36,720 nt of DNA. Source: Paracoccaceae bacterium (GTDB lineage: Bacteria > Pseudomonadota > Alphaproteobacteria > Rhodobacterales > Rhodobacteraceae). Below are positions 1-11,745 of this stretch, one piece after another. Within the stretch, counting starts at the first letter, position 1. Every line of letters starts with the position of its first letter. A model generated the notes under the pieces. It was not told the DNA's origin, ran no database searches, and saw only the letters and a list, made by a program, of their open reading frames with translations. Position numbers and translations under genes: made by a program. The stretch covers positions 1 through 36,720 of the forward strand of contig JAHQVS010000039.1 of assembly GCA_019634215.1 (NCBI GenBank), written 5' to 3'.

Positions 1-97
1 AACTTTCGAACGGTTGGTCGAGGTGGTGCGGGCGATCGGCGCGTATTGGATCGAAATCGTCGCGCTGCCAACCGAATGCAGCTCGCGCGTTTATTAA
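1..97 (+). CDS. Response regulator receiver protein, C-terminal end (partial)
   Basis: Only the last 31 residues are inside the window; the frame is open to the left edge and stops at TAA 95-97. The residues FERLVEVVRAIGAYW are typical of the last helix of small Rcp1/CheY-like single-domain response regulators. Such proteins receive a phosphate from a histidine kinase in the cytoplasm. The next gene, a receiver-histidine kinase hybrid, starts 7 bases downstream, so the two are probably co-transcribed and may exchange phosphate. The phospho-acceptor Asp is outside the window, so the family call rests on the C-terminal signature and the neighbour. Confidence 0.7.
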   Translation, partial: TFERLVEVVRAIGAYWIEIVALPTECSSRVY

Positions 98-1870: not shown

Positions 1871-3154
1871 ATGACCACCACAATGGATGGCGACCAGCGC
1901 AGCGGCTCCGCAGATCGGCGGCTGTTGCCTCGTGACGATCTCGGACGGCGGCGGGATGATCTGGCCGGGTCTGGAATCTTGAGCGAGGAAGAAGAAAGCG
2001 CGCTGAGGTTGAAGCGGTTGTCGCTGCATTATGTGCTGATGTTTGCAGCGGTGTTGATGGTTAGCGTTGTGACTGTGAGCACAGGCAATCACAAGTATGC
2101 GCCGATGCTGCACGATACGCAGCGCATCAGTGAGGCCGCCGAGGTGCTCAGCGAGGGGCGCGCCTATCTCACCTATGATCTGAACATTGAGACGCGCCAA
2201 TTGCGCGAGGAGCATATCAAGAGCCTGAAGCGCACCCCGGAGCTGGCTGTGATGGGCGCTAGCCACTGGCAAGAGGGCCACGAGGTGATCGCCCCTGGCG
2301 TCGACTACTACAATGCTCATATTCATCGGGACTATTACGAGGACATCGTTGGCGTGGTCGGCTCGTTTTATGAGGCAGGCCGTTTGCCCGAAACTCTAGT
2401 GATCTCCATCCGGGATAACCAGTTTCTCCCTGTTTCCGCGCGCACGGACTTTCTGTGGACGCCGGGCTTGGAAGCGTATCGACGGATGGCGCGCCGGTTG
2501 GGGCTGCCCCACCATGTCGCCTATGCGCATGGGCTCACACCGCAACTGCGTCAGGAGCTGTCGCTACCCTTGCTGGCGGCCAATCTGGAGCGTGACTTTG
2601 CATCGCCAGTGAAGCCCGGCCCCAGGCCAGCGGACGCCGCAACGGCGCCGCATCCCACCCTGTCAACCCTGCTGCCGGATGGCTCGATTCTCTGGTCGGT
2701 GATCCAGGAACAGTCGTACACACAGGAGCGCACCCGTCGCCTTTCGCTAGAGTTCGCGGCAGAGAAGCGTCACCAGCAGCTTGTTGTCGATCCGCTCGGG
2801 CTGCGTTCGGTTGACAGAGTGTTGGCGTTCTTGGCGGAGCGCGGCGTGAAAGTCTATCTAGCCCACCCTCCCTTCAACCCTACTTATTGGGCTGCGGTGC
2901 AGGGCTCGCCCTACATGGAAGGCCTCAAGAACATTGAGCGGATTACGCAGGATCTGGCGGCCAAGTATGGCTGGAAGGTGGTTGGTTCGTTCAATCCACA
3001 TGATCTGGGCTGCGTCGATGAAATGTACATCGACGCCGAGCATAGCGGTCCTGAGTGCTTAAAACGCATAATTGATCAGGTGTTGGAAGACCAGAACAAG
3101 CTAGCGCGGAATGCGCCAACTGGAGAGCGGTCGAATGACGTTTTCTTCCTATGA
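1871..3154 (+). CDS. SGNH-hydrolase-like membrane protein, DltD/AlgJ-like partner of the MBOAT
   Basis: A 427-residue protein with a cytoplasmic N-terminus of about 50 mostly polar residues, one membrane segment at about 52-70 and a large domain expected on the periplasmic side. Two sequence blocks fit an SGNH (GDSL-like) catalytic fold: the nucleophile region VMGASHWQEG with Ser131, and DAEHSG near the end with Asp388 and His391 as the D-x-x-H pair. SGNH proteins of this topology (AlgJ/AlgX, PatB, DltD) take an acyl group delivered by an MBOAT and place it on a polysaccharide or other envelope polymer. The MBOAT gene starts inside this gene's last 20 bases, so the two are translationally coupled. 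The ribosome-binding site before ATG 1871 is weak. It could instead be a hydrolase, but the context favours a transferase. Confidence 0.75.
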   Translation: MTTTMDGDQRSGSADRRLLPRDDLGRRRDDLAGSGILSEEEESALRLKRLSLHYVLMFAAVLMVSVVTVSTGNHKYAPMLHDTQRISEAAEVLSEGRAYLTYDLNIETRQLREEHIKSLKRTPELAVMGASHWQEGHEVIAPGVDYYNAHIHRDYYEDIVGVVGSFYEAGRLPETLVISIRDNQFLPVSARTDFLWTPGLEAYRRMARRLGLPHHVAYAHGLTPQLRQELSLPLLAANLERDFASPVKPGPRPADAATAPHPTLSTLLPDGSILWSVIQEQSYTQERTRRLSLEFAAEKRHQQLVVDPLGLRSVDRVLAFLAERGVKVYLAHPPFNPTYWAAVQGSPYMEGLKNIERITQDLAAKYGWKVVGSFNPHDLGCVDEMYIDAEHSGPECLKRIIDQVLEDQNKLARNAPTGERSNDVFFL

Positions 3155-4706
3155 ATTCATTCTGATCTTCTTACCGCTCTGTTATCTCGGCTTTCTTGCA
3201 GTCCATCGCGGATTCGGCTGGGCGGGCGTATATCCGTATCTGGCTGCGATGTCGTTACTCTTCTATGCCATGTTCAGCGCAACATTGACCTTAGTGCTGG
3301 TTGGGTCCGTGTTGGTGAATTTCGCCTTGGGGCGGCTGATCGTGCAACTTCGCGAAAGCGGGCAGGCGACCGGCTGGTTCACCGCTGGCGCCGTCGGGGC
3401 AAACTTGGCGATGCTGGGATACGCCAAGTACGCGAATTTCTTCATTGACATCACCAATTCGGCTTCCGGGGCTGGCTTCTCCCATATCGATCTGATTGTG
3501 CCGGTGGGGGTGTCTTTTTTCACCTTCACCCAGATTGGCTTTTTGTTGGAGGCCAATAGCGGTCAGGTCGGGCGGGTGCCTTTCTCGCGATACGCCTTGT
3601 TCGCCACCTTTTTCCCTTGCGTCACTGCCGGTCCGATCCTTCTGCAACGTGAGATTTTCGGGCAGATGGAGGAGAAGCAGGGGCCGGCCTACTCAACTGT
3701 TGCTCTCTCCATTGGGTTGACCATCTTCGCAATGGGGCTGTTCAAGAAAGTCATCTTAGCGGACAGTATCGCGCCCTATGCCGACACCGCCTTTGACGGT
3801 GTCGCCGCCGGAGCGACGATCGGGGTGCTCGAAGCTTGGGCTGGCGCATTGGCGTACACCTTCCAGCTCTATTTTGACTTCTCAGGCTATACTGATATGG
3901 CGATTGGGCTTGGCTATATCTTCGGCTTGAAGCTGCCGCTCAATTTCAATTCGCCGTTTCGCGCCACCAGCATCTCTGAGTTCTGGCGGCGTTGGCATAT
4001 GACCATGACGCGGTTCTTCACCACCTATCTGTACACGCCGTTGGCGGTACGTGGCACGCGCACAGCGATGCAGGCGGGGTATTCACCTGTACAGCGTTGG
4101 CTGATCGCCTCGGCGATACCGGTGGTGTTCACCTTCTTCATCGCCGGTATTTGGCACGGCGCGGGATGGACCTTCGTGGTTTATGGCCTGATCCATGGCG
4201 CGGCGTTAGCGGTCAACCATGGCTGGCGTCAGTTCAAGGGCGCGGACCTGGGCCCTCAGGTGGGCTGGGTGTTGACGATGTCAGTCGTCGTCACAGGATT
4301 GGTGGTGTTTCGCGCACCGGATATGCAGGTCGCAGGGACAATCATCGCCAGCATGTGGGGCTATGAGTTCTTTGGTGAGGCTCTGCGCGGCGAGTGGAGC
4401 GGCGCCGTTTTGGTGGTGAACGGCGCTGTCGCCGCCGACTATCTGGGTGATCGGGTCAAGTTAGATTTGCAGTCGGCGTTTTTACTGATCGCAGCATATG
4501 GCGGATTGGTGCTCTCGGCGCCGAACACCCAAGAGGTGCTGCGCAACTATTGGGTTAGCTGCGATCCGCAGCCGGAAGAAGACCAAGACACGGCATGGCT
4601 GCGCTGGCGGCCAAACCTCGCCTGGGGGATGGCGGCTGGCTTGGTGTTTGTGATCGCTCTGAGTTCAATGGGGGATCACAGCCACTTCTTGTATTACAAG
4701 TTCTAG
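3135..4706 (+). CDS. MBOAT family O-acyltransferase (AlgI/DltB-like)
   Basis: A 523-residue polytopic inner-membrane protein. I chose ATG 3135 because MTFSSYEFILIFLP matches the usual AlgI-family N-terminus and a GGAG lies 9-10 bases upstream; an in-frame ATG at 3111 would add eight atypical residues. MBOAT landmarks are present: YFDFSGYTDMAIGLG, the block SISEFWRRWHMTMTRFF, and the catalytic histidine in AGIWHGAGW (His341). The family moves an acyl group across the membrane from a cytoplasmic donor. AlgI and PatA use acetyl donors; DltB uses D-alanyl-DltC. Here a carrier protein and an aminoacyl:carrier ligase follow directly, which points to an aminoacyl donor. The protein ends in HFLYYKF, resembling the C-terminal tyrosine motif of DltX and of AlgI-like MBOATs. 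It overlaps the SGNH gene and lies 21 bases before the ligase. Confidence 0.93.
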   Translation: MTFSSYEFILIFLPLCYLGFLAVHRGFGWAGVYPYLAAMSLLFYAMFSATLTLVLVGSVLVNFALGRLIVQLRESGQATGWFTAGAVGANLAMLGYAKYANFFIDITNSASGAGFSHIDLIVPVGVSFFTFTQIGFLLEANSGQVGRVPFSRYALFATFFPCVTAGPILLQREIFGQMEEKQGPAYSTVALSIGLTIFAMGLFKKVILADSIAPYADTAFDGVAAGATIGVLEAWAGALAYTFQLYFDFSGYTDMAIGLGYIFGLKLPLNFNSPFRATSISEFWRRWHMTMTRFFTTYLYTPLAVRGTRTAMQAGYSPVQRWLIASAIPVVFTFFIAGIWHGAGWTFVVYGLIHGAALAVNHGWRQFKGADLGPQVGWVLTMSVVVTGLVVFRAPDMQVAGTIIASMWGYEFFGEALRGEWSGAVLVVNGAVAADYLGDRVKLDLQSAFLLIAAYGGLVLSAPNTQEVLRNYWVSCDPQPEEDQDTAWLRWRPNLAWGMAAGLVFVIALSSMGDHSHFLYYKF

Positions 4707-4727
4707 TGGGGACTGGGGGGAGAGACG

Positions 4728-5942
4728 ATGAACCAGATGGTCACGGGCGCGATCAACGTCACGATCGCGTTGCCAAAGCAGCTTGAGCAGGAGATCGCCG
4801 ACGATATCGAGAAAGAGTCGGTGTTCGTTTCTCCTTACCTAGAGAAAATCAAGGTGGCGGCGGACCGCATGTCGGCCGAGCTATTCATCCGCGACGCCGC
4901 CAAGGCGGAAGAGGTGGTGGACAAAGCGACCCGTTATGTCGAGGTGATGGCGAAGCAGCGCACTGGCTTTGACATCAAGCTGTTCCTGCAAAATAAGCGC
5001 CAGGATGTCGGGCCGTTTCAGCCGGATGTCAACGCCGAGCTGGTGAGCCGTGGCTGGGTGCATGATTACGGTGAGGGGCAAGTCGCGTATCGCGGGCCTG
5101 TGTTGAAACTGGCGCAGCTTGTCAACGCCAAGGCGGTTGAGTTGTACGCGCGGGCGTTTGATCTGGTTGATGGGCATTTCCCGTCCTTCGTCAGCGCAGA
5201 GACGCTGCATAAGTGCGGTTATTTCGACTCCCACCCCAATCAAGCATCGTTCGTGGCGACGGTTATAGAAGATTTCGACGCCATTGAGGAGTTCCGCCGG
5301 GCGAACTCCTGCGCCGAGGGGGCGGTGCTGCCACCACAGGAGCATATGCACCATGGCGGCATGTGCCTGAACCCCGCTGCTTGTTTTCCGGCCTATCCGA
5401 CCTTCGCTGGCGAGACATTGCCGGAGGAAGGCCATGTGGTGAGCTGGCAGGGCCGGGTGTTCCGCTATGAGTCGCGCAACATCACCGGCTTGGACCGGCT
5501 GTATGAATTCAATGTGCGCGAACTGGTGTTCCTGGGCTCAGAGGAGTTCGTCGCGAACTGTCGGCAACGGGTGATCCCGGTGATCGGCGGGCTGGCGGCG
5601 TTCTTCGACTTGGAGATGAAGCTCCAAACCGCCACCGATCCGTTCTTTGCGACGGTCTCCGCCGCCAAGAAGTTCTTCCAAGCCTCGCAAGAAGTGAAGA
5701 GCGAGATTCTGATCCCTGTGCTGAAGGCGGACGGATCAGTGAAAGAGATGGCTTGCGGATCGGTAAACCTGCACGGCGCATTCTTTGGCGAGCGGTTTGA
5801 TATTACGGCTGTCGACGGCGCCGCCGCACATACCGGCTGCGTCGGGTTAGGGGTGGAGCGCTGGGTGCTGGCCGCCTTCACCCAGCATGGTTTCGATCCG
5901 GCGCGGTGGCCGCAGCCGGTGCGTGAGGCGATTTTTGCTTAA
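4728..5942 (+). CDS. Amino acid:[carrier protein] ligase, seryl-tRNA synthetase-like (class II aaRS paralogue)
   Basis: A 404-residue cytoplasmic protein. From about residue 100 it matches the aaCP ligase family known from Bradyrhizobium and Agrobacterium. Those enzymes resemble the catalytic core of archaeal SerRS but load glycine or alanine onto the phosphopantetheine of a carrier protein instead of tRNA. Visible landmarks are TLHKCGYFDSHP, LNPAACFPAYPTF, the motif-2-like VFRYESRNITGLDRLYEF, the SVNLHGAFFGERFDI block, and a motif-3-like HTGCVGLGVERW. The Cys and Glu residues in these blocks are candidates for the family's zinc site. The first roughly 95 residues form an extra N-terminal region not expected in the short (about 320-residue) relatives. 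A strong GGGGGGAGAG lies before ATG 4728. A carrier protein gene follows within 50 bases, matching the known ligase-carrier pairing. The amino acid used cannot be read from sequence. Confidence 0.9.
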   Translation: MNQMVTGAINVTIALPKQLEQEIADDIEKESVFVSPYLEKIKVAADRMSAELFIRDAAKAEEVVDKATRYVEVMAKQRTGFDIKLFLQNKRQDVGPFQPDVNAELVSRGWVHDYGEGQVAYRGPVLKLAQLVNAKAVELYARAFDLVDGHFPSFVSAETLHKCGYFDSHPNQASFVATVIEDFDAIEEFRRANSCAEGAVLPPQEHMHHGGMCLNPAACFPAYPTFAGETLPEEGHVVSWQGRVFRYESRNITGLDRLYEFNVRELVFLGSEEFVANCRQRVIPVIGGLAAFFDLEMKLQTATDPFFATVSAAKKFFQASQEVKSEILIPVLKADGSVKEMACGSVNLHGAFFGERFDITAVDGAAAHTGCVGLGVERWVLAAFTQHGFDPARWPQPVREAIFA

Positions 5943-5985
5943 TTAGGAATAGCCCTTTCAGGGGCAGGGAAGCTTGGGGGAGCAA

Positions 5986-6216
5986 ATGAAGAAACTAGAA
6001 ACCATCGTCGCCGATATTTTGTCCGTCTCTGAGGACATCATTCATGACGAGTCAAACGCGAAGAACACGCCGAATTGGGACAGCGCACGCCATATCGATC
6101 TGATGATGGCGGTGGAGTTGGCCTATCAGGTCCAGTTCTCGATGCCAGAAATTACTGGACTTCAGAACCTCGGCGATATGCGGCGCTTGCTGCAGCAAAA
6201 GGGTGTTGAGGTTTAG
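5986..6216 (+). CDS. Small acyl/aminoacyl carrier protein (DltC/ACP-like)
   Basis: A 76-residue acidic helical protein with the phosphopantetheine attachment site in WDSARHIDLM. Ser33 is the predicted modified residue; the usual DSL is DSA here. The length and the motif near position 33 fit free-standing carrier proteins. I prefer ATG 5986 (MKKLETIVADILSV), preceded by GGGGGAG at short spacing; an upstream TTG at 5974 would add four residues. It sits 43 bases after the SerRS-like ligase, the arrangement known for aminoacyl:carrier ligases and their partner carriers. Inference: it carries an amino acid as a thioester from the ligase to the MBOAT at the inner face of the membrane, as DltC does in Gram-positive bacteria. 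A 4'-phosphopantetheinyl transferase encoded elsewhere would be needed. Confidence 0.9.
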   Translation: MKKLETIVADILSVSEDIIHDESNAKNTPNWDSARHIDLMMAVELAYQVQFSMPEITGLQNLGDMRRLLQQKGVEV

Positions 6217-6251: not shown

Positions 6252-7253
6252 ATGAGATGGTTTGGGATCGCCGCCGCGTCGTTGATTGTTGTCGGCGCCG
6301 CCTTCACCGCGACGGTTGAGCGGAAGTATGAATGGGATATGGCGAACGAGTACAACGCCACGTCCATTCACGCCGAAGGCGATAAACTGTTTTCGGAGAA
6401 GCTGGCGGAGCTGTCGCACGGCGTGATCACCATCACGCACCACTTTGGCGGCTCGATTGGCTTTAAGTCGAAGGATCAACTTGACGCCGTTGGCGATGGC
6501 GCCTTGCCGATCGCCGACACCTTTGTCGGTCCTCTTGGCGGTGTCGAGTCGGTGTTCTTGTTGCCGACGCTGCCGTTCTTGGCGTCGACATCGGAGCAGG
6601 CGCGGGAGCTGTATGAGATCGCCAAGCCGGAGTACGAGGCGGCGTTTCTGAAGCACAATCAGAAGCTGCTGTACTCGTCACCTTGGCCTCCGTCAGGCTT
6701 CTGGGCAAATGCGCCGATCGACAGTGTGGAGTCATTGGAAGGGTTGCGGCTGCGGACTTATGACGCCAATGGCACCGTCACCTTGAAACAGGCAGGCGCT
6801 GCCCCGATTCAACTTTCATGGGCCGACGTCGCGCCGCAGTTGGCGACGGGCGGGATTTCCGGCGTGCTGACGTCAGCCGAGTCGGGCGTGAATGGCAGCT
6901 TCTGGGAGCATCTGTCGCATTTCACTGAGGTGAACTATGCGGTGCCGCTAAACATGGTGACGATCAATCTCGATGTCTGGAACAGCCTCAGCCCGGATCT
7001 GCAACTGGCGGTCCGTGAGGCGGCTCATGCGACTGAGAACCATAACTGGCAGGAAGTGAAGCGCCGGGTGGCGCAGAACTACGCTGAGATGAAAGAGAAC
7101 GGCGTCACCGTGGTGGACCAGACCCCGCCGGAATTTCTGAAGGCGCTGCGTACGGCCGGTCAGGAAGCCCGAGCGACTTGGCTGGAGAAGTTCGGCGAGC
7201 CCGGTGAAAAGATCCTGGCGGAGTATGAGGCGCGTCGCGCGGCGGTGAACTAG
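6252..7253 (+). CDS. TRAP transporter substrate-binding protein (DctP family)
   Basis: A 333-residue periplasmic binding protein. Residues 1-20 are a hydrophobic export signal ending AAFTA. The mature part starts WDMANEYNATSIHAEG, typical of DctP proteins. The segment LEGLRLRTYDANG carries the conserved arginine (about R168) that usually pairs with the carboxylate of the ligand, followed by the PIQLSWADVAPQLATGGISG block common to the family. An AGGAG lies upstream of ATG 6252. It is followed by both membrane subunits, so this is a complete tripartite sodium-driven importer. The ligand is probably an organic acid or acidic sugar derivative. It is separated from the carrier protein gene by only 35 bases, so it may belong to the same transcript as the acyltransferase cluster. 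Confidence 0.93.
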   Translation: MRWFGIAAASLIVVGAAFTATVERKYEWDMANEYNATSIHAEGDKLFSEKLAELSHGVITITHHFGGSIGFKSKDQLDAVGDGALPIADTFVGPLGGVESVFLLPTLPFLASTSEQARELYEIAKPEYEAAFLKHNQKLLYSSPWPPSGFWANAPIDSVESLEGLRLRTYDANGTVTLKQAGAAPIQLSWADVAPQLATGGISGVLTSAESGVNGSFWEHLSHFTEVNYAVPLNMVTINLDVWNSLSPDLQLAVREAAHATENHNWQEVKRRVAQNYAEMKENGVTVVDQTPPEFLKALRTAGQEARATWLEKFGEPGEKILAEYEARRAAVN

Positions 7254-7284
7254 ATCGTCTTTCGCTGCTGCCTGTTAAACCTGA

Positions 7285-7312
7285 GCCGCGCCTGCTAGGC
7301 GCGGCCTTTCTT
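7285..7312 (+). terminator. Attenuator-like hairpin between dctP and dctQ
   Basis: GCCGCGCC (7285-7292) pairs perfectly with GGCGCGGC (7298-7305) around the loop TGCTA, and CTTTCTT follows. The 8-bp GC-rich stem with a short T-rich tail looks like a partial intrinsic terminator. Placed directly after the binding-protein gene, it would give more DctP than membrane subunit transcript, as is common for binding-protein transporters. Confidence 0.6.
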
Positions 7313-7346
7313 CATCTCCAGACGGATTGAACAGGGGCGAGCGCCG

Positions 7347-7895
7347 ATGGCCCAGCTTGACAAGATTGCGCGTGGACTCAACGCCGGTTCGGCGGTGATT
7401 GCAGCGCTGCTGCTGGTGTATATATTGGGCCATATACTGCTGGAGATTTGCTTCCGCGCCTTTTTCAGCAGTTCCACCTACGTGCTGGATGAGTTCGTCG
7501 GCTATGCGGTGGCGGCCATGACCTTCTTTGCGCTTGGGCCTGCATTGCAAGCAGGCAGTTTGATCCGGGTGAATGTGATTGTCAGCCGGTTGGAAGCCGA
7601 GGCGCGGCGGCAGGTGGAGATGGCTGGCGTCGTGGCCACCTGCGGGATGACCTTATTCGCTGGTTTTTGGGTTGGCAGGGACGCATGGCGGTCCTTTCTA
7701 CGCGGGTCGGTGAGCGAGAGCGTCGCCGAGGTCCCGCTTTGGCTGCCCTTGGGAGCGGTATGGCTCGGGCTGATGCTGTTTGGGTTTCAGCTTGCGGTGT
7801 ATTTTCTGAGGCTGTCACACGGCGGGGCAGTGATCGGCGGGGAAGAGGCAGAGATCGTCGAGCCGACAGCCGCTGCGCCTCCAGTGAAGGGCTGA
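7347..7895 (+). CDS. TRAP transporter small permease (DctQ family)
   Basis: A 182-residue inner-membrane protein with four hydrophobic segments, starting at about residues 13-36, 46-70, 89-110 and 128-150. The central EFVGYAVAAMTFFALGPALQAGSLIRVNVI region is typical of DctQ subunits, which form the small membrane half of TRAP importers and associate with DctM. The last roughly 25 residues are a polar tail rich in Glu, Pro and Ala. It lies 93 bases after dctP, beyond the hairpin, and 3 bases before dctM, so translation with dctM is likely coupled. Confidence 0.92.
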   Translation: MAQLDKIARGLNAGSAVIAALLLVYILGHILLEICFRAFFSSSTYVLDEFVGYAVAAMTFFALGPALQAGSLIRVNVIVSRLEAEARRQVEMAGVVATCGMTLFAGFWVGRDAWRSFLRGSVSESVAEVPLWLPLGAVWLGLMLFGFQLAVYFLRLSHGGAVIGGEEAEIVEPTAAAPPVKG

Positions 7896-7898
7896 GCC

Positions 7899-9218
7899 AT
7901 GGAAGCGCTGCTTGGCGGGTTGATCATTCTGGTGCTGATCCTGCTCGTGCTGGGCTCGGGAGTGTGGGTGTTCTCCGGGCTGCTCCTGGTGTCTAGCTTC
8001 GGGATGGCGCTGATGTTGGGCTTCGGGCCTGAGCGTATCGGCGTGATCCTTGGAAAGATCATCGTCGGCGCGGCGTCGTCTTGGGAGCTGGCGGCCATAC
8101 CTCTGTTCATTTGGATGGGGGAGCTGATCTTTCGAACGGATATCTCGGAACGCCTTTTCAAAGGCTTGGCGCCGGTGGCCTCGCGGATACCCGGCGGGTT
8201 GATCCACACCAATGTGTTTGGCTCAGCGCTGTTCGCAGCGGTCTCTGGATCAAGCGCGGCCACCACGGCCACCATCGGCAAGATCACCACCGTGGAGCTA
8301 AAGCGGCGTGGGTATGACGAGCAGCTCTCTATCGGATCGCTGGCCGGGGCGGGGAGTTTGGGGCTGCTGATCCCACCATCGATTGTGATGATTATTTACG
8401 GCGTGCTGGCGGAAGTTTCGATTGTGCGGTTGTTTGCAGCGGGAGTGCTGCCGGGGCTGTTGGTGGCGGCGTTATACTCGACCTATGTCGCCGCGCGCTG
8501 CGTGGCCAATCCGGCATTGGCGCCACGCGGGGTGGATCGCGACGATGCAGACTCGATGGGGCAAGCGCTGGGCAATCTAGCGCCGGTGTTGACGTTGATC
8601 GGCTTGGTGCTGGGGGCGCTGTACACAGGATTGGCGACGCCGTCTGAGGCGGCGGCGGTTGGGGTGGCGGCAACCCTGGCGATGGTGGCGCTGACTGGGC
8701 AGTTGACGGTTGCGGCGTTGACGGAGTCGCTTTTGGGGGCGGTGCGGACCTCTTGCATGGTGTGCTCGATCCTGGTGGCGGCCTCGTTCCTGTCTACGGC
8801 GATGGGCTATATGCATATCCCGCAGGATGTCGCCGGGTATATCGCTGGGCTGGAGCTTTCGCCCGCCGGGCTGATTGCGATCTTGGCGGTGTTTTTTATC
8901 GGTCTTGGGCTGTTCCTGGATGGGGTGTCGATCACTGTCATGACATTGCCGATCACCTTGCCGTTGACGACGTCTATGGGGATAGATCCGATTTGGTTTG
9001 GGGTGTTTTTGGTGTTGATGGTGGAGATCGGACAGATGACGCCACCGGTGGGGTTCAATCTGTTTGTGCTGCAAGGGCTAACCGGCACTTCGCTCAACCG
9101 GGTGGCGCTGGCCGCCGCGCCGTTTTTCGCACTGATGTTGGTGGCGGTGGTGTTGATTTATATCTGGCCGGAGATTGTGTTATGGCTACCAGGCGTGCTG
9201 TTTGACCGACCTGTATGA
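7899..9218 (+). CDS. TRAP transporter large permease (DctM family)
   Basis: A 439-residue inner-membrane protein with about 12 hydrophobic segments and the family length. Recognisable DctM blocks are AIPLFIWMGELIFRT, NVFGSALFAAVSGSSAATTATIGK, GSLAGAGSLGLLIPPSIVMIIYG, the ATPSEAAAVGV loop and EIGQMTPPVGFNLFVLQG. DctM is the transport subunit that couples uptake to the sodium gradient. It follows dctQ after 3 bases. The next gene starts after 250 bases that contain no clear terminator. Confidence 0.95.
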   Translation: MEALLGGLIILVLILLVLGSGVWVFSGLLLVSSFGMALMLGFGPERIGVILGKIIVGAASSWELAAIPLFIWMGELIFRTDISERLFKGLAPVASRIPGGLIHTNVFGSALFAAVSGSSAATTATIGKITTVELKRRGYDEQLSIGSLAGAGSLGLLIPPSIVMIIYGVLAEVSIVRLFAAGVLPGLLVAALYSTYVAARCVANPALAPRGVDRDDADSMGQALGNLAPVLTLIGLVLGALYTGLATPSEAAAVGVAATLAMVALTGQLTVAALTESLLGAVRTSCMVCSILVAASFLSTAMGYMHIPQDVAGYIAGLELSPAGLIAILAVFFIGLGLFLDGVSITVMTLPITLPLTTSMGIDPIWFGVFLVLMVEIGQMTPPVGFNLFVLQGLTGTSLNRVALAAAPFFALMLVAVVLIYIWPEIVLWLPGVLFDRPV

Positions 9219-9468: not shown

Positions 9469-11745
9469 ATGAATGGTGAAGATTTGTTTCTGCAAAATAG
9501 TGATGGAAACTTTATTCTAAGTGTTGAAGACGTTCCGGCCAGTGATGATTGGCAGAGAACCACAAAATATCCCGGGTATGAAGGCGATGCGGCTTATGTG
9601 TATACAGGACCGAATACATATGGCGTGAATAGAAACGCAGATACACTCGATTCTACCTTAAGCTTTCAGATCGATGTTGAAGATCCAGGGAATTATTTTC
9701 TTGGGCTCAGCATGGGCCGCACGCATGATTTCAACAGTGAGCTGCGTGGCGACGAAGGCAACGACGTCTGGGTTCGTGTTGATGATGGGCCCTGGACGAA
9801 GGTGTTTGCGAGCGGCATGCCCTGGGAAGAGGCGAGTTCGAAGTTCGGCGCCACCTTTGATGTCAATCACCAAAAGTCTAACGCCGCTTATGATCTTTCG
9901 GCGGGCATCCACACAATCGAAGTCGCAGGCCGGTCGACTGGCCTGATTCTTGATCAAATTCAGCTGTCGCAAAATCGCGGCGAGGCGACCTCGAAGGGGC
10001 AGCCGCTGTCGCCGGTTGACAGTATGCCGCCGTCGACCCCGGTGGAGCCTCCAGTTGTCGAGCCTCCTATTGTCGACGAGCCGCCGGTTGTTGAGGGTGG
10101 TGGAGATACTGACGCGCCCGTTGATCCGAATGGCCTGTTCGCCCAAGCAGATCATGTGGTGTTCCACTTCGACGGCAACAACAATGACCCAGACGACATT
10201 GCTGCGCTGCCGGTGGCGGCGTTGCTGGCGAAGGCGGCCGGCGCGGAAGACAAGATCGACCTGTATTTCGGCAATAACCTTGCTGAACCGAACAACAACA
10301 CTCTGTTGAACAATTTGCGAGATAGCGCTGACTTTGCGGAGTCCATCGGTATCAACACCGTTGACTATCAGAGCAATGTCCAAGGGGCGACGGAGTCGCT
10401 GGTCGATCTGATCAATTCCGGCCAACAGTTGCTGTTCATCGAGGGCGGGCCGATGGAGGCGGTGTATCGCGCGCTCGAAGGCTCTAATCCGGCGATGCAT
10501 GACAACGTGACGTTGCTGTCGCATTCAGGCTGGAACGAAAACCGGTCGGTGGTCTCGCGTCCGGGTGAAACTCAAGCGCGCACCTGGTCCGATATCGACC
10601 AAGACTTTCCTTTAGTCACATTGGTTGAGATCGACGACCAGAACGCGGGCTCCAACAACACCAACGGCTTCAACAACCGCGACTGGAGTTGGATGGACCA
10701 GAGTGACGATCCAGTGATTCAGGATGCGCGCGACGCGATGAAGGGCGCGGGGGGCAACAAGGCGAACGATCCCTCAGACGCCGGTATGTTGCTTTACGCG
10801 CTAACAGGTGAGGAGAACGGCAAGCCTGCGGATGCGAAAGCTTACCTCGAAAGCTCGACCGTATTTGGCGATGCGCCAACTCCGCCGGCTGTCGACCCTG
10901 ATCCGGCGCCCATAGATCCTGCGCCCATAGATCCTGCGCCAGTGGACCCCGCGCCAGTTGATCCGCCGAGCGGCGACGTCGCCCTCAATTTCTATCTCGC
11001 CGATGTCCAGACCGATGAAATCATCATGGCGCTGGAGCCTGGGGCCAAAATTCCGGCATCGGTGTTGGAGAATCGGGATGTCACTGTTTTCGCGGAGACG
11101 GCGGATGGTTCGGCGGCGCCCGGCAGTGTCGAAATCAGCATGAACGGGGCGACTTCGCTAGAGAATATCACGCCTTACGCACTGTTTGGCGACAAGAATG
11201 GGGACTTCCTGAAAGGAGCCGCCTTCGCCTCAGGGGACAATGCGATCGATGTGTCGGTGTTCTCCGGCAAGAACGGCACTGGTTCGGTGTTGGAGCAATC
11301 GACCCTGAGCTTTGAAATCGTGGCGGATGACGAGGTTGCGGATGAGCCGACCGTTCCGGACGCGCCAGTGAGCGGTGACGCTGACCTTCTTGACCTGTTT
11401 CTCGTTGATATGGAGACCGGCCAGACGCTGGGCGAAATTCGTCAAGGCGAGACGCTGGCGGTCGACAATTTGACGGACCGCAGGGTGAAGATCGAAGCTA
11501 GGCTTGAGGGAGACGACGCTGGACTGGTTGAGAGCGTCGCGTTGTCGCTCGATGGCGGGAAAGCTGTCCAGAATGTCGCTGGCTATAACTTTAAGGCTGG
11601 CGGGGAGAACTGGGGCAACTCAAAATTCTCCTCGGGCCAGCATGAGCTTGAGGTCGCGGCTTACGATCAGAATGGCGCGAAAGGGGAACTGCTCCATGAG
11701 GAGGAGTTCAGCATTACGATCACTGAGGATGGCCTGATCGCGTAA
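9469..11745 (+). CDS. Large modular protein: glycan-binding-like, nucleoside-hydrolase-like and Ig-like domains
   Basis: A 758-residue acidic protein. Residues about 10-170 form a beta-rich, carbohydrate-binding-like domain ending GIHTIEVAGRSTGLILDQIQLS. A Pro/Val-rich linker follows at about 183-215. Residues about 224-465 resemble the inosine-uridine nucleoside hydrolase/DUF1593 fold: HFDGNNNDPDDIAAL fits the metal-binding Asp cluster, and FIEGGPMEAVYRALEG fits the later family block. A linker of P-[IV]-D-P-A repeats leads to two related Ig-like units at about 504-620 and 637-755. There is no Sec signal peptide. The acidic composition, linkers and beta-rich C-terminus suggest export by a type I system, which is inference. 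GGAGAG precedes ATG 9469. Its substrate is unknown; a role on an extracellular polysaccharide is possible given the upstream cluster. Confidence 0.7.
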   Translation: MNGEDLFLQNSDGNFILSVEDVPASDDWQRTTKYPGYEGDAAYVYTGPNTYGVNRNADTLDSTLSFQIDVEDPGNYFLGLSMGRTHDFNSELRGDEGNDVWVRVDDGPWTKVFASGMPWEEASSKFGATFDVNHQKSNAAYDLSAGIHTIEVAGRSTGLILDQIQLSQNRGEATSKGQPLSPVDSMPPSTPVEPPVVEPPIVDEPPVVEGGGDTDAPVDPNGLFAQADHVVFHFDGNNNDPDDIAALPVAALLAKAAGAEDKIDLYFGNNLAEPNNNTLLNNLRDSADFAESIGINTVDYQSNVQGATESLVDLINSGQQLLFIEGGPMEAVYRALEGSNPAMHDNVTLLSHSGWNENRSVVSRPGETQARTWSDIDQDFPLVTLVEIDDQNAGSNNTNGFNNRDWSWMDQSDDPVIQDARDAMKGAGGNKANDPSDAGMLLYALTGEENGKPADAKAYLESSTVFGDAPTPPAVDPDPAPIDPAPIDPAPVDPAPVDPPSGDVALNFYLADVQTDEIIMALEPGAKIPASVLENRDVTVFAETADGSAAPGSVEISMNGATSLENITPYALFGDKNGDFLKGAAFASGDNAIDVSVFSGKNGTGSVLEQSTLSFEIVADDEVADEPTVPDAPVSGDADLLDLFLVDMETGQTLGEIRQGETLAVDNLTDRRVKIEARLEGDDAGLVESVALSLDGGKAVQNVAGYNFKAGGENWGNSKFSSGQHELEVAAYDQNGAKGELLHEEEFSITITEDGLIA
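10909..10968 (+). repeat. Four 15-bp tandem units encoding P-[IV]-D-P-[AP]
   Basis: Four consecutive 15-base units encode PIDPA, PIDPA, PVDPA and PVDPP. The first two are identical (CCCATAGATCCTGCG) and the other two have diverged mainly at third positions. They form a flexible interdomain linker in the modular protein and are prone to copy-number change. Confidence 0.85.

Follow-up and report, generated by a model that had tools for sequence, protein, structure and literature searches.

A conserved gene cassette linking a seryl-tRNA synthetase-like carrier protein ligase to MBOAT and SGNH proteins: a probable Dlt-like aminoacylation pathway in alphaproteobacteria

The four-gene locus

The locus described here lies in a 36,720-nucleotide stretch of DNA (the window) from a Paracoccaceae bacterium, which constitutes contig C324 of a fragmented, 82%-complete assembly. 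Four forward-strand genes encode an SGNH transferase (positions 1871-3154; 427 amino acids), a membrane-bound O-acyltransferase (MBOAT; 3111-4706, 531 amino acids, with a start at either 3111 or 3135), an amino acid:[carrier protein] (aaCP) ligase resembling seryl-tRNA synthetase (SerRS; 4728-5942, 404 amino acids) and an acyl carrier protein (ACP; 5974-6216, 80 amino acids), in roles like those of DltD, DltB, DltA and DltC, respectively. A first-pass annotation had described them as adjacent and tightly spaced, and all four open reading frames (ORFs) are indeed present on this strand: the SGNH and MBOAT genes overlap by 44 bp, and gaps of 21 bp and 31 bp separate the MBOAT gene from the ligase gene and the ligase gene from the carrier gene. 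An AT-rich gap of 264 bp precedes the SGNH gene. A PADLOC search returned no match, and no relative was found in the viral contigs searched.

The MBOAT protein matches Pfam PF03062 (2e-21), and its best NCBIfam model is that of DltB (TIGR04091, 1e-53, under its cut-off). A sequence search for structurally solved relatives returned only the DltB structures 8jem and 6bug (1e-29). His349 is conserved (codon 4155-4157). The protein ends in FLYYKF (4686-4703), which follows the last hydrophobic segment (residues 503-521) and includes Tyr528. This ending conforms to F.Y..F, the acyl-shuttle motif whose tyrosine becomes acylated in DltX and in fused MBOATs such as PatA (PMC12148441). The locus thus has both features of an MBOAT-SGNH acyltransferase system, a C-terminal F.Y..F motif and an SGNH partner, and a separate DltX microprotein is missing from the window, the motif being fused to the MBOAT.

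The SGNH protein is the weakest of the four gene calls. It has no Pfam match over the cut-off, and Pfam and NCBIfam alone failed to identify it, which made a predicted fold necessary. A Foldseek search with its confidently predicted model (predicted local distance difference test score, pLDDT, 88) ranks DltD structures first, a weak fold match (E 1.5e-4) with a low global template modelling (TM) score. Ser131, Asp388 and His391 (forward-strand codons 2261-2263, 3032-3034 and 3041-3043) are invariant across 26 homologues, as are Cys381 and Cys396. A single N-terminal transmembrane helix precedes the catalytic domain, giving the membrane-anchored SGNH protein with Ser, Asp and His that characterizes DltD. 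In three of the related loci described below (L045:5959-8436, L047:5952-8429 and L066:2577-5036), the SGNH protein has a long hydrophobic stretch fused to its N-terminus; in L045 this comprises about 330 residues and has no Pfam match.

The ligase matches the aaCP ligase model NF005479 (7e-52) and the methanogen-type SerRS model NF002120 (8e-47), both under the cut-off. Its predicted model (pLDDT 90) matches methanogen SerRS and the Bradyrhizobium glycine:[carrier protein] (Gly:CP) ligase, in the case of the Gly:CP ligase with a TM score of 0.87 over the target. Alignment with methanogen SerRS identifies Cys219, Glu265 and Cys371 as the zinc-site positions, and these residues and the motif-2 residue Arg246 are invariant in 42 ligase homologues. 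The window ligase therefore has the methanogen-type SerRS core with its Cys/Glu/Cys zinc site, and it keeps about 100 residues at its N-terminus, a portion of which aligns with the N-domain of methanogen SerRS. A separate housekeeping SerRS is encoded elsewhere in the window genome, and no protein in this 82%-complete genome matches DltA (TIGR01734) over the cut-off.

Pocket residues were considered as a guide to amino acid specificity and set aside, since the compared positions are common to the Gly:CP ligase and to Methanopyrus kandleri SerRS. A substrate that cannot be read from the sequence leaves room for a ligase that no longer makes aminoacyl thioesters, having turned to another acid or to a regulatory role, with the carrier supplying the MBOAT with an acyl group other than an amino acid. 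However, the invariant zinc-site and motif-2 residues are those used for amino acid activation in characterised relatives, and this alternative is very improbable.

The carrier gene adjoins the ligase gene. Its product matches ACP-type models and PDB entry 2lml (9e-8), and its attachment motif WDSARH (WDSxxH) contains the phosphopantetheine serine (codon 6082-6084). The true start is probably the ATG at 5986, which is the conserved one.

Conservation in proteobacteria

A ligase relative of any kind is found in 17 of 385 genomes of the class to which the window genome belongs. One of them (G220), which belongs to a different family, shares the order of all four genes, with 47-63% identity in the SGNH, MBOAT and ligase proteins. 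A wider scan of 84,980 species genomes used an alignment of MBOAT-linked ligases, and the best 80 of 131 relatives were kept. The proteobacterial set among them comprises 34 loci (L037-L070) with ligase identities of 42-70%, including loci from Phyllobacterium leguminum and a Ramlibacter metagenome-assembled genome (MAG); one, L057, appears to be the G220 locus itself.

All four genes are present in order in 27 of the 34 loci, and two more have SGNH, MBOAT and ligase genes up to the end of the contig. In two loci the sequence stops short of the upstream genes, which makes them uninformative, and the SGNH-MBOAT-ligase(-carrier) order is thus found in 29 of 32 informative loci. Every MBOAT in the set that reaches its own end terminates in F.Y..F, as do all 33 proteobacterial MBOATs checked. 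As the cassette is kept in dozens of genomes, the grouping of the four genes is not due to chance; adjacency in this genome only had been named as grounds for refuting the proposal, and the order is conserved across many. A candidate relative in a Tabrizicola MAG from the same family as the window genome (L022:4814-5380, identical to L072) was rejected as a working homologue. On its 6.3 kb contig only ligase residues 128-274 are preserved, running into an unrelated frame, and the fragment is either a relic or a misassembly.

The ligase and carrier genes also occur without their partners. In L046 (6195-7751) and L061 (950-2533) both are present without SGNH or MBOAT genes, and no run of N interrupts either locus; in L065 the MBOAT is truncated; and L071, a more distant sister, has a ligase and carrier with no MBOAT nearby. 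Given these exceptions, the ligase and carrier may also serve some other function, and the four loci count against the Dlt-like pathway proposed below.

Paenibacillus operons and the ligase groups

A ligase tree contains three well-supported groups: Group A, which includes the window ligase; Group B, which includes the Paenibacillus sequences and two alphaproteobacterial sequences (L023 and L024); and Group C, of the Bradyrhizobium, Azospirillum and Rhizobium type. The tree is unrooted, so it is compatible with either one or two origins of the link between ligase and MBOAT.

The Paenibacillus operons of Group B are Dlt-like. In all 44 Paenibacillus-type loci, the genes for a carrier, the ligase and a DltD-like SGNH protein are followed by one for a DltX-like microprotein ending in FIYE.F, usually 36 residues long, and in 42 of the 44 a DltB-like MBOAT without the F.Y..F motif comes last. 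The motif is terminal in only 45 of 46,139 stop-terminated segments from these loci, and 44 of the 45 are the DltX-like microproteins. The best model for the Paenibacillus-type MBOATs is DltB, and DltC models are best for the carriers of these loci and of L024, in each case under the cut-off. In L023 and L024 the Group B ligase is followed by an MBOAT ending in FIYFRF, and L024 also encodes a carrier and an SGNH-like protein; no good relatives of the L024 type were found in its own order.

Among 79 genomes of the Paenibacillus family, a close ligase is present in 71, compared with a DltA over the cut-off in only two, and these two are among the 71. The positive controls, Bacillus subtilis and Lactococcus lactis, were detected in this search; only 16 candidates were scored in genomes rich in nonribosomal peptide synthetases (NRPSs), so a few DltA proteins could have been missed. 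An earlier search of 16 genomes of the family, in which more candidates were scored, found no DltA over the cut-off, with Paenibacillus filicis just under it. On the basis of these counts, DltA appears to have given way to the synthetase paralogue in this family.

Group C differs. None of the eight Group C ligases examined has an MBOAT within the flanks that were read, and the Azospirillum and Rhizobium members have acyl-CoA dehydrogenase, DUF1839 and GH2 genes as neighbours. Since MBOAT neighbours are absent there, a Dlt-like role is assigned to Groups A and B and not to all ligases of this kind. A related ligase on a plasmid of Streptomyces sp. NBC_00557 (L120) lies amid ketosynthase, carrier, acyl-CoA dehydrogenase and condensation-domain genes, in what is possibly a metabolite cluster.

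Proposed pathway

Gene content and order, motifs, predicted folds, conservation and the Paenibacillus parallel argue strongly that the four genes encode a Dlt-like envelope aminoacylation pathway, and from them we infer its loading and transfer steps, its amino acid and acceptor, and its regulation. The SerRS-derived ligase would adenylate a small amino acid, most likely glycine, alanine or serine, and load it on the carrier phosphopantetheine. On the cytoplasmic side, the MBOAT would take the aminoacyl group from the carrier to Tyr528 in its own periplasmic F.Y..F tail, with this C-terminal motif performing the job of DltX. Tyr528 would then hand the group to the membrane-anchored SGNH protein, at Ser131, and this protein would esterify an acceptor in the periplasm or at the surface, for instance a polysaccharide, lipopolysaccharide or lipid.

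According to the first-pass annotation, the proteins share out the work as in Dlt, with DltA replaced by a class II synthetase paralogue, and this proposal has gained from the F.Y..F motif on the MBOAT, the Dlt-like Paenibacillus operons and the near-absence of DltA from the family that has them. Its assignment of DltA to DltD roles is retained for all four proteins, with the addition of the DltX function, which it had omitted and which is present fused to the MBOAT. Its description of the system as Gram-negative is accurate for the window but too narrow, as the Paenibacillus operons have it also.

Several further observations weigh against this pathway. The MBOAT is of the extended, AlgI/PatA-like form with a fused motif, and those members of this type that have been studied use acetyl-CoA; it reaches the DltB model only under the cut-off; and the cassettes have no consistent linkage to polymer biosynthesis genes. 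The MBOAT and SGNH proteins could instead carry out ordinary acetyl transfer from acetyl-CoA, of the AlgI/AlgJ or PatA/PatB type. The ligase and carrier would then serve a separate purpose, such as making peptides or metabolites, and would only be co-regulated. The fused F.Y..F motif and PatA-like layout, typical of acetyl-CoA systems (PMC12148441), fit such an arrangement, as do the ligase-carrier pairs without an MBOAT in L046, L061 and L071. However, MBOAT-SGNH systems that use acyl-CoA have no carrier, which goes instead with Dlt (PMC12148441), whereas here the carrier and ligase travel with an MBOAT in two ligase clades and in different gene orders, including the Paenibacillus operons with their DltX-like protein. 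Together with the eight Group C ligases that lack a neighbouring MBOAT, this makes acetyl transfer unlikely.

The lack of consistently linked polysaccharide genes bears on the acceptor as well. An aminoacyl group might be transferred not to an envelope polymer but to a small molecule, lipid or secreted metabolite, and the setting of the Streptomyces plasmid ligase, among ketosynthase, carrier and condensation-domain genes, is in keeping with this. However, polymer acylation uses exactly the parts found in the cassette, the operon in Paenibacillus resembles Dlt, and no recurring biosynthetic cluster was seen beside the alphaproteobacterial cassettes; such an acceptor is unlikely.

If envelope aminoacylation is correct, the aaCP ligases of Groups A and B gain a concrete role as its donors, and a cell-surface pathway has a class II tRNA synthetase paralogue where Dlt has an NRPS-like enzyme. 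Amino acid esters would then be expected on alphaproteobacterial surfaces, and searches for Dlt based on DltA would miss most of the sampled Paenibacillus family. Aminoacylation of cell surfaces commonly changes charge and resistance to cationic peptides.

Flanking genes and probable regulation

The window opens with the C-terminal end of a single-domain response regulator (2-97, forward strand; ending in TFERLVEVVRAIGAYWIEIVALPTECSSRVY and a stop codon), followed by a receiver-PAS-histidine kinase gene on the same strand (104-1606; Response_reg, HisKA and HATPase_c domains), an orthologue of which lies upstream of the cassette in many relatives. Comparison of both contig ends indicates that the front half of the regulator is at the end of another contig of this genome (G000:C207), beside a gene for a histidine kinase with three PAS domains, and we infer that the two contigs adjoin. 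This kinase is 54% identical to the one upstream of the cassette in locus L021. The same set (triple-PAS histidine kinase, single-domain response regulator, receiver-PAS-kinase) precedes the cassette in many relatives, and the description of the locus as four genes, all of which are present, is therefore incomplete: the conserved two-component relay upstream also belongs to it. The partner regulator looks Rcp1-like, which raised the suspicion that the upstream PAS kinase is a phytochrome; this was rejected, as Pfam identifies three PAS_7 domains and no phytochrome domains.

In L021 (9313-11031) a receiver domain is N-terminal to the SGNH transferase in one ORF, a fusion that possibly places envelope acylation under direct phospho-control. 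In several Hyphomicrobiales loci a receiver-GGDEF-EAL protein, its domains read in L048 (11533-13584), follows the carrier (similarly in L052, L053, L055, L059 and L068), and its position beside the cassettes points to cyclic-di-GMP. The kinase and regulator relay, the L021 fusion and these GGDEF-EAL neighbours suggest a surface modification under signal control, in which the linked relay probably sets the expression or activity of the pathway.

Directly downstream of the carrier, on the forward strand, are the genes for a tripartite ATP-independent periplasmic (TRAP) transporter (DctP-DctQ-DctM; 6252-9218). TRAP genes occur near the cassette in about nine other related loci, and a tie between the transporter and the pathway is uncertain. 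Further downstream (9469-11745), a 758-residue protein has a weak C-terminal match to GH115 and proline-rich DPAPVDPAP linkers.

Comparison with known systems

The role of carrier aminoacylation by aaCP ligases was stated to be unknown in a 2022 review (PMC9437257). A literature search, with the primary Bll0957 and Dlt-shuttle papers outside its reach, found no paper joining an aaCP ligase to MBOAT, SGNH or Dlt proteins, and the association of ligase, MBOAT and SGNH is probably new. The cassettes likely form a separate class of systems for envelope aminoacylation, one that is driven by a tRNA synthetase paralogue, spans Pseudomonadota and Bacillota, replaces DltA in Paenibacillus, is wired to a phosphorelay in alphaproteobacteria and accounts for the physiological role of two aaCP ligase clades.

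Like Dlt, the system has an activating ligase, a carrier, an MBOAT, an F.Y..F shuttle and an SGNH transferase, and its relatives in Paenibacillus even encode a stand-alone DltX-like microprotein. However, the window ligase is a class II SerRS paralogue, whereas that of Dlt is an NRPS-like adenylation enzyme, and the F.Y..F sequence is part of the MBOAT rather than of a separate DltX. With DltA absent and DltX fused, the window system is Dlt-like but not strictly Dlt. In Gram-positive bacteria Dlt attaches D-alanine, esterified to teichoic acid; the window host, judged by its relatives, appears to be an alphaproteobacterium.

An MBOAT with a C-terminal F.Y..F motif and an SGNH partner are also shared with O-acetylation systems of the PatA/PatB and AlgI types; these draw on acetyl-CoA and lack the carrier and ligase that are conserved in the window cassette. 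The aaCP ligase Bll0957 of Bradyrhizobium has the same SerRS-like core, zinc-site cysteines and adjacent small carrier as the window ligase. However, it falls in another clade, its Azospirillum and Rhizobium relatives have no MBOAT or SGNH neighbours, and it is the window ligase that retains the N-terminal residues. Finally, AlmEFG, which glycylates lipid A in Vibrio, is likewise a Gram-negative system that brings a carrier-bound amino acid to the envelope, but it does so with the NRPS-like AlmE and the acyltransferase AlmG, and involves no MBOAT, SGNH protein or aminoacyl-tRNA synthetase paralogue.

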